From Oscillospiraceae bacterium (lineage in GTDB: Bacteria > Bacillota > Clostridia > Oscillospirales > Acutalibacteraceae), in the NCBI GenBank assembly GCA_015066295.1, contig SVOR01000008.1, positions 1-53,429 of the forward strand: a stretch of DNA of 53,429 nt, written 5' to 3'. This document shows positions 37,867 to 53,429 of the stretch, in pieces. A model generated the notes under the pieces. That model was not told the origin of the DNA and did no database searches. It saw nothing but the letters and a program-made list of their open reading frames with translations. The stretch's first letter is position 1. The number at the start of each line of letters is the position of its first letter. The translations under genes and the position numbers were made by a program.

Positions 37867-38314
37867 GCCTCCCTCTGACGAGGGAGGGGGACCGCTTGCG
37901 GTGGAGGGAGAGAAAATGAAAGAATATAATAAAGATAATATCCCTCTTGCAAAAACACTCCGAAAAAATATGAAGCCTTGGGAAAGAAAACTCTGGTATG
38001 AATTTTTAAGGAATTACCCATTGCGTTTTCAAAGGCAAAAGGCCATTGGCGATTATATAGTAGATTTTTATTGCGCAAAAGCAAGACTTGTTATTGAGCT
38101 TGACGGCGGTGGACATTACACCTTCGAACAAATCAAAAAAGATACTATTCGCACAAAAGAATTAGAGAGTATGAATTTGACAGTGTTAAGAATTTGTAAT
38201 TTAGATGTAGACCGTAATTTTAACGGCGTATGTGAATATATAGATTCAGAAATTAAAAATTCTCTCCCTCAGTCTTTTGCTTCGCAAAATCCAGCTCCCT
38301 CGTCAGCGGGAGCC
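37867..38314 (+). mobile_element. Inverted-repeat element carrying a DUF559 gene
   Basis: The left end has CTCCCTCTGACGAGGGAG (37869-37886) and the right end, read in reverse, CTCCCGCTGACGAGGGAG (38294-38313 region): imperfect terminal inverted repeats, each itself a small palindrome. Inside each end is a second small stem (ACCGC-TT-GCGGT at left, TTTTGC-TTC-GCAAAA at right) and then GGAGGGAGA or TCTCTCCCTC. The DUF559 ORF fills the middle. The same ends with a 30-nt filler instead of the gene occur at 43727-43863 and 53304-53429. Confidence 0.72.
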
Positions 38315-38332
38315 GAAGATAATTCTCTTTAA
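37916..38332 (+). CDS. DUF559-family PD-(D/E)XK-like endonuclease domain protein
   Basis: A 138-residue protein whose fold is related to very-short-patch-repair (Vsr) type nucleases. Visible motifs are LRKNMKPWERKLWYEFLR with a conserved Glu, FQRQKAIGDYIVDFYC with the active-site Asp, and LVIELDGGGHY with the ExD pair, then TVLRICNLDV. The ATG 37916 uses GGAGGGAGA of the surrounding repeat as ribosome site. The last about 24 residues (from SLPQSFASQ) are encoded by the right repeat arm, so the gene is built into the element. The stop lies 12 bp before the phosphatase gene. DUF559 proteins have no proven function; the nuclease call is from motif similarity. Confidence 0.85.
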   Translation: MKEYNKDNIPLAKTLRKNMKPWERKLWYEFLRNYPLRFQRQKAIGDYIVDFYCAKARLVIELDGGGHYTFEQIKKDTIRTKELESMNLTVLRICNLDVDRNFNGVCEYIDSEIKNSLPQSFASQNPAPSSAGAEDNSL

Positions 38333-43612: not shown

Positions 43613-43643
43613 AAAACACACAACGTAAGTTGTGTGTTTTTTT
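43613..43643 (+). terminator. 5S rRNA terminator
   Basis: ACACACAAC (43616-43624) pairs with GTTGTGTGT around GTAA, followed by seven Ts. The 208-bp repeat begins directly after it. Confidence 0.9.
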
Positions 43644-43644
43644 A

Positions 43645-43852
43645 TTGTATAACGAAAACCACGCGATAGTCGCGTGGTTCTATAGAGGTTAACCGATGAA
43701 CAAGGAAAAATCTTGATATATGACTTGCCTCCCTCTGACGAGGGAGGTGGATTTTGCAGAGCAAAAGACGGAGGGAGAGAAGAAGCATAAATTATATCAA
43801 TGCTTTACTATTTCTCTCCCTCAGTTTCGCTAACGCTCAACAGCTCCCTCGT
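43645..43852 (+). repeat. Long repeat copy 1, matching 53222-53429
   Basis: 208 bp identical to 53222-53429 except for T at 43725 versus C at 53302, offset 9577 with no gaps. The first part holds a perfect AACCACGCGA/TCGCGTGGTT hairpin (43657-43679) and AGAGGTTAACCG. The second part is a gene-free version of the DUF559 element, which continues to 43863. The two copies both start right after the T-run of a terminator. The other copy reaches the window end, so the full repeat may be longer. Confidence 0.92.
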
Positions 43853-43863
43853 CAGAGGGAGCC
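43727..43863 (+). mobile_element. Gene-free derivative of the DUF559 element
   Basis: Left end CTCCCTCTGACGAGGGAG, a TTTTGC-AGA-GCAAAA stem, GGAGGGAGAGAAG, a filler of about 30 nt, TCTCTCCCTCAG, a TTTCGCTAACGCT segment and the right end CTCCCTCGTCAGAGGGAG. This is the same order of parts as at 37867-38314 but with the ORF replaced by the filler. It is MITE-like. Confidence 0.7.
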
Positions 43864-44005
43864 AAGCATCTTAATATACCTGTTTACAGGTGGCAAGTAA
43901 TACCTGCATGGCTGGCAGGCCAATTTAAAAACGCACTTGTGCACCGCCAGTATCGGTTAGGGCTATGCCCGAAAATGAAAAACCACCCGCTATGCGGGTG
44001 GATAT
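43864..44005. other. Gene-free stretch with several short hairpins
   Basis: No ORF. Small stems at ACCTG-TTTA-CAGGT (about 43880-43893), CCTGC...GCAGG (about 43902-43919), GCAC-TT-GTGC and GGGC-TAT-GCCC, then the rhaM terminator. It may be a degenerate continuation of the repeat region. Confidence 0.4.
43981..44004 (-). terminator. rhaM/FAD-oxidoreductase terminator
   Basis: CCACCCGC-TAT-GCGGGTGG stem, followed on the minus strand by TTTTT; it begins a few bases after the rhaM stop. Confidence 0.85.
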
Positions 44006-53189: not shown

Positions 53190-53220
53190 AAAAGGAGATA
53201 CGAAACGTATCTCCTTTTTT
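53190..53220 (+). terminator. argH terminator
   Basis: AAAAGGAGATACG (53190-53202) pairs with CGTATCTCCTTTT (53206-53218), loop AAA, then further Ts. The second long-repeat copy starts at 53222. Confidence 0.9.
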
Positions 53221-53221
53221 G

Positions 53222-53429
53222 TTGTATAACGAAAACCACGCGATAGTCGCGTGGTTCTATAGAGGTTAACCGATGAACAAGGAAAAATCTTGATATATGA
53301 CCTGCCTCCCTCTGACGAGGGAGGTGGATTTTGCAGAGCAAAAGACGGAGGGAGAGAAGAAGCATAAATTATATCAATGCTTTACTATTTCTCTCCCTCA
53401 GTTTCGCTAACGCTCAACAGCTCCCTCGT
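53222..53429 (+). repeat. Long repeat copy 2, cut by the window end
   Basis: Same 208 bp as 43645-43852 with one substitution (53302). It includes the AACCACGCGA/TCGCGTGGTT hairpin and, from 53304, the gene-free DUF559-element derivative. It starts directly after the argH terminator T-run, as copy 1 does after the 5S terminator. Truncated by the window edge. Confidence 0.92.

Follow-up and report, generated by a model that had tools for sequence, protein, structure and literature searches.

The window analysed here, the whole 53,429-nt stretch of contig SVOR01000008.1 from an Oscillospiraceae bacterium, contains an element at positions 37867-38314 in which two inverted palindromic units surround one small gene. 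The left unit (37868..37910, + strand; 'Z' flavour) was delimited by its sequence, by a repeat search and by a layout recurring in many elements. It is composed of an outer hairpin, CCTCCCTC-TGAC-GAGGGAGG (37868-37887), an inner hairpin, ACCGC-TT-GCGGT (37891-37902), and a mirror purine arm, GGAGGGAG (37903-37910), which doubles as the ribosome site of the DUF559 ORF. This ORF (37916..38332, + strand), annotated with hmmscan, AlphaFold2 and Foldseek, encodes a DUF559 (PF04480) nuclease of 138 residues. The inverted right unit (38262..38314, - strand; 'Y' flavour), recognised by its sequence and the inverted repeat, carries CTCTCCCTCAG, an inner hairpin TTTTGC-TTC-GCAAAA (38275-38289) and an outer hairpin GCTCCCTC-GTCA-GCGGGAGC (38294-38313). 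The terminal repeat CTCCCTCTGACGAGGGAG at 37869-37886 has its inverted partner, with one mismatch, at 38295-38312. The coding frame includes the right unit, which supplies the final ~24 codons (38260-38332). The original prediction had placed a DUF559 gene within a palindromic repeat whose arms provide the ribosome site and the last ~24 codons, and both its coordinates and its parts were correct. A search of the window with Rfam returned a tmRNA and a 5S RNA and no family covering the palindromic repeats. At the element, a Pfam scan found no transposase domain; DUF559 is the only gene between the units.

DUF559 proteins are common and, to our knowledge, have no settled role; they adopt a PD-(D/E)XK/Vsr-like fold. 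The window ORF matches the Pfam DUF559 family at 4.2e-27 with 94.6 bits (curated cut-off 20.6), the domain spanning residues 11-113. With its AlphaFold2 model (pLDDT 88), the top Foldseek match was NGO0050, a Neisseria DUF559 structure, followed by the homing endonuclease I-Bth0305I (3r3p; E 5e-4; TM-score about 0.6 on the query and 0.8 on the target), with Vsr lower down. A profile search agreed on NGO0050 and I-Bth0305I (3.5e-4 for the latter). Of the solved structures whose activity is known, this homing endonuclease and Vsr are the nearest. Residues E23, D50, E61 and D63 are among those invariant over 20 diverse DUF559 proteins, and the median dN/dS of 0.07 (147 non-independent pairs) shows that the protein is under strong purifying selection. 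The HMM relationship between YcjD, the E. coli DUF559 protein, and Vsr was already known (PMC1189080), and a Caulobacter DUF559 protein has been described as a Vsr-like factor linked to cytosine methylation (PMC12907096).

The palindromic units follow a fixed order: a pyrimidine arm, a loop, a purine arm, a short linker, the inner hairpin, and a second purine arm mirroring the first. One flavour (GGTGG...hairpin...ACGGAGGG) normally lies upstream of the gene, and the other (GCTG...hairpin...CTGAGGG) normally lies downstream in inverted orientation. The earlier observation that the inner stems vary among copies yet still pair holds on a wider scale. Among 81 distinct inner segments of one flavour, the mean stem was 5.7 bp versus 2.8 bp after shuffling, and a stem of at least 6 bp occurred in 60% versus 0.6%; the 73 distinct segments of the other flavour behaved similarly, pairing far above the shuffled expectation. 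For the third arm, a mirror fitted better than a direct copy in 208 of 362 units and worse in 29, a layout which, judged from the sequence, is that of intrastrand triplex motifs. In 49 of 82 elements of the first sample (shuffled mean 11, maximum 22), the upstream and downstream hairpins have loops that are reverse complements of each other; in a more divergent second sample only 11 of 56 do.

The same parts also occur without the gene. Two gene-free pairs, in which both inverted units surround a filler of ~30 nt, lie on the + strand of the window at 43727..43864 and at 53304..53429, the second cut by the contig end. The original prediction described their parts properly, but they are not bare copies: the two have at least 230 nt in common (96% identity), including ~104 nt upstream, and so belong to a larger composite repeat. 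This repeat (43623..43990, + strand; right end approximate) was delimited by the 230-nt, 96% direct repeat and loci L010 and L012; its left flank is common to 53200-53303 and its right flank to contig C25. The composite repeat (window 43623-43990 and 53200-53429; L010, L012) starts with TTGTATAACGAAAACCACGCG, ends near CCACCCGCTATGCGGGTGGATATTTATTT, and is inserted right behind terminator T-tracts with the gene-free pair in its middle. Bare gene-free pairs occur elsewhere in the same genome (contigs C23 and C26). In that genome (1.54 Mb in 44 contigs) there are additional gene-free pairs as well as single units; several lie where a contig ends, as would be expected of repeats, which break assemblies. 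The terminal palindrome, with up to two mismatches, has 15 matches in the 1.54-Mb genome, 10 of them outside the three places in the window, and a backwards control gave 0. In another genome, G019 (L210-L221), gene-free pairs lie within a larger, IS30-like MITE of ~210 nt with the ends GCTGTTGCA...TGCGACAGC, and an IS30-like transposase gene is close to another copy (L223); here one repeat family is carried by another. Since the gene-free copies of both genomes are partly within larger repeats, not every one of them is a simple MITE of a filled element.

The association of the gene with the units is general within the order. Of 79 relatives, 29 have PF04480. A first set comprised 134 unique DUF559 copies, of which 120 had enough flank; hairpins with a pyrimidine arm were found on both sides of 82 of these 120 genes and on at least one side of 116; distant 270-nt windows, the control for this set, had such a hairpin in 2.9%. 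Because the first set was partly found by similarity to the window protein, the less biased number comes from an even sample of 99 further copies, taken from genomes spread evenly across the order: of 97 genes, 55 had hairpins on both sides and 91 on at least one. DUF559 genes outside any such repeat, which would have spoken against the original prediction, were thus rare, yet they exist, since 6 of 97 in the even sample lacked units entirely. When the samples were pooled, Py/Pu hairpins flanked 137 of 217 DUF559 genes on both sides versus 4 of 214 other ORFs in the loci of the first set (p 6e-49). This result contradicts the reading of the hairpins as ordinary transcription terminators or regulatory hairpins that flank a small gene by chance, as do the position of the right unit within the coding frame and the insertion of whole elements described below. 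Many units are located at gene 3' ends, and similar repeats in Enterobacter have been interpreted as terminators (PMC2869309); we nevertheless consider chance flanking by such hairpins highly improbable. At one further locus (L080), a remnant of a second DUF559 3' end lies upstream of an intact DUF559 gene, which suggests a tandem insertion or gene conversion.

The ends of the elements vary with the protein that they enclose. We labelled the end types CTCCCTT, CTCCCTC, CTTCCCC, CTCTCCC, CCCTCTTT and others, and placed them on a DUF559 tree with few resolved branches. For the first set, end type changed 15 times versus a shuffled mean of 44.9, and 0 of 200 shuffles were as low; the anticipated tracking of end sequence by DUF559 phylogeny was therefore borne out. 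Three genomes (the window's own, L001/L002, and those of L050 and L124) have two DUF559 genes each with ends that differ by protein clade, and because the two genes share one genome this contrast is independent of host history. The second gene of the window's genome, on contig C9, is likewise preceded by a left unit and followed by an inverted right unit, and its element has different ends (CTCCCTTGTAAAGGGAG) and two additional tandem left units.

Across 79 genomes, the presence of at least three units of any type was associated with any DUF559 gene (18/6/4/51, odds ratio 38, p 2e-9). Type-matched associations were the strongest (A2 with A2, odds ratio 210; B with B, p 2e-4; C with C, p 1e-4), with type A1 the least specific; these p-values are optimistic because genomes were treated as independent. 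The expectation that gene-free copies would occur only alongside a filled copy failed: many units were found in three genomes in which DUF559 was undetected (G049, G062 and G017, with 41, 12 and 12 pattern matches). This abundance counts against DUF559 as the mobiliser and might suggest that the gene is a passenger, i.e. cargo or a nearby host nuclease, with the units being spread by IS30-like transposases, RAYT-like enzymes or repeat recombination. The IS30-like MITE of G019 with its neighbouring transposase gene would fit such an origin, as would the Vsr-like factor of Caulobacter (PMC12907096). A passenger role poorly explains the matching of end types to protein clades, the fact that inverted units enclose the gene in at least five phyla (see below) or the purifying selection, and we regard it as unlikely, though a little less so than the homing scenario considered next.

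Empty sites, which the original prediction had proposed to look for, were found at orthologous positions. In G050 and its close relative G079, an element lies in the 3' end of an MmcQ/YjbR-like gene, bordered on either side by a 40-nt direct copy of this gene end, CTCGGCGCGAGCTTCGCGCTCACCGCGCCGAAGATAAAGA; the sister species G080 has a single copy (one base different) with nothing inserted. In G002, the gene whose 3' end contains an element encodes a polysaccharide deacetylase; the duplication here is of ~64 nt and is old because its copies have clearly diverged, and G000, G001 and G003 have one copy and no element at this site. Palindromic units are wholly absent from both orthologous empty sites, so the element arrived whole at their filled counterparts. 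A gene-free pair of G050 is likewise missing at the orthologous intergenic site in G080. Most elements have no recognisable duplication, and only the two of 40 and ~64 nt are backed by an empty site. From a direct-repeat search alone, L020 has a 56-nt direct repeat with 98% identity at a gene 3' end. Ten other long direct repeats were rejected as target duplications, as they are arrays of, or run into, other palindromic units (L018, L093, L101, L118, L136, L376, L381, L389, L392 and L401). The direct repeat of L068 was left out since it continues into another unit, and that of L124 was also left out, the counted cases being those with an empty site. At the locus in the window itself, no clean insertion is visible because in the related genome G002 the two outer genes are adjacent, with the acetyltransferase gene missing together with the DUF559 element. 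We dropped phages as a route to empty sites, since phage and viral contigs rarely carry DUF559 elements (2 phage records and about 5 close viral matches).

These sites bear on another possible origin, by homing, in which the palindromic pairs would be older and independent, and DUF559 would cut gene-free pairs into which its gene is then copied by double-strand-break repair. The fold is nearest to that of the homing endonuclease I-Bth0305I, the outer parts are the same in the filled and gene-free versions, and in G019 a duplicated flank contains a filled copy next to a gene-free one. Homing into pre-existing pairs is at odds with the two empty sites, and with ends that differ among DUF559 clades within one genome; we think it improbable.

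The pairing of gene and units extends beyond Clostridia. DUF559 elements of Bifidobacterium have near-identical inverted arms of 70-120 nt, which in L090 and L107 are accompanied by longer inverted flanks. Among ten non-Clostridial DUF559 genes drawn from plasmid-collection records, from Deinococcus, alphaproteobacteria, cyanobacteria and Photobacterium, seven had inverted palindromic arms above the 99% null; in Sphingomonas and Novosphingobium the unit grammar is the same as in the window. DUF559 elements with inverted arms are thus found in four phyla besides that of the window, hence in at least five. On two cyanobacterial plasmids (L291, L292), the DUF559 gene adjoins a DUF1156-domain gene.

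The DUF559 gene of E. coli, ycjD, is followed by BoxC, a repeat known in this species since the 1990s and, in its G/C-rich form, from more than 260 genomes (PMC4666352). BoxC #9 of MG1655 adjoins ycjD; on the reverse strand (L207, MG1655 1351204-1351760), a BoxC-like unit at the ycjD 3' end has on each side a 39-nt direct copy of this gene end (the two 90% identical) and looks like a gene-free insertion with a target duplication. BoxC pairs are polymorphic among strains: strain 25POL lacks the lldD-trmL pair, and at the alx-sstT site K-12 has two units where p11A has one. Of 5426 complete E. coli genomes, 3333 have the sapF-fabI interval filled by ycjD and BoxC (L207, L208/L209). In the ycjD-less strains examined it holds the eefRABCD efflux operon, with homology ending about 60 nt from BoxC. 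We rejected this interval as a clean insertion, since it is a replacement; the replacement was known, and the part of that report available to us does not mention BoxC at the junction (PMC12817139). According to the main study of BoxC, no mobility gene has ever been found near these repeats (PMC4666352), and CGTC-type REPs are likewise without a known enzyme (PMC3733652). For DUF559, ycjD and COG2852, we found no report of a link to palindromic repeats in the open literature (subscription papers and preprints were outside this scope).

Gene and ends occur together across genera and phyla, the ends co-vary with the protein clade, and insertion takes place near gene 3' ends. Sequence comparison thus gives good support to the first part of the original prediction, that the gene and its repeat ends are one mobile unit; for the second part, mobilisation by DUF559, we infer the nuclease to be the mobilising enzyme as the most economical reading. 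Altogether, an element of two inverted palindromic units around one DUF559 gene, mobilised by its product, is the explanation that we consider probable. The Vsr/homing-endonuclease-like protein would recognise folded ends of its own type, both on its own copy and, in trans, on gene-free copies. It might nick donor and target DNA at separated positions of the two strands, and host repair synthesis would copy the element into the gap, leaving long target duplications of variable length. Only two features led us to propose this nick-and-copy step: the verified duplications are both long and differ in length, and the protein has a fold of nickase or homing type. Gene-free pairs would be deletion derivatives on which the enzyme acts in trans, as RAYT transposases are thought to do on REP elements, and some of these pairs may have been amplified later inside other repeats.

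The comparison with REP/RAYT systems (REPtrons, BIMEs) was apt in its logic. Both combine a nuclease-type gene, set between inverted palindromic units of two flavours, with numerous gene-free pairs and single units dispersed through intergenic DNA; a genome has several types, each matched to its own enzyme, and the repeats can outlive the gene. However, the enzyme here is the PD-(D/E)XK/Vsr-like DUF559 instead of a Y1 HUH tyrosine transposase, the GTAG foot is absent, by reading, from both window units, the units have an extra inner hairpin and a mirror purine arm, and insertion is accompanied by long direct duplications. The BoxC/PIT/TM triplex repeats of E. coli share the pyrimidine arm, loop, purine arm and mirror purine arm (PMC4666352), and are intergenic, either solo or as inverted pairs of about 80-110 nt. 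The window units are unlike the E. coli consensus, the Clostridial inner hairpin precedes the mirror arm, and the triplex is here predicted from layout. EDxHD/Vsr-like homing endonucleases such as I-Bth0305I have the same catalytic fold, but the DUF559 gene is not in an intron or intein, is flanked by inverted palindromes, and has entered sites with no prior copy. The very-short-patch repair endonuclease Vsr also has this fold, whereas the window DUF559 gene has no adjoining methyltransferase gene and is enclosed by its own repeat ends. As with MITEs and insertion sequences, autonomous and gene-free versions have common ends and the target is duplicated; in contrast to them, a DDE transposase is absent, and the duplication is long (40 and ~64 nt verified) instead of short and fixed.

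The wider proposal is of a pan-bacterial class of mobile elements whose sole enzyme is a Vsr-like PD-(D/E)XK nuclease recognising triplex- or hairpin-forming ends and leaving long target duplications. This nuclease might be the missing mobiliser of the E. coli BoxC-type repeats and of similar repeats across Bacillota, Actinomycetota, Deinococcota, Pseudomonadota and Cyanobacteriota, for which we see about even chances. If true, it would add a class of nucleases not known to spread palindromic repeats. The two puzzles of how BoxC spreads and what DUF559 does would become one testable hypothesis, and E. coli K-12 has both ycjD and BoxC.
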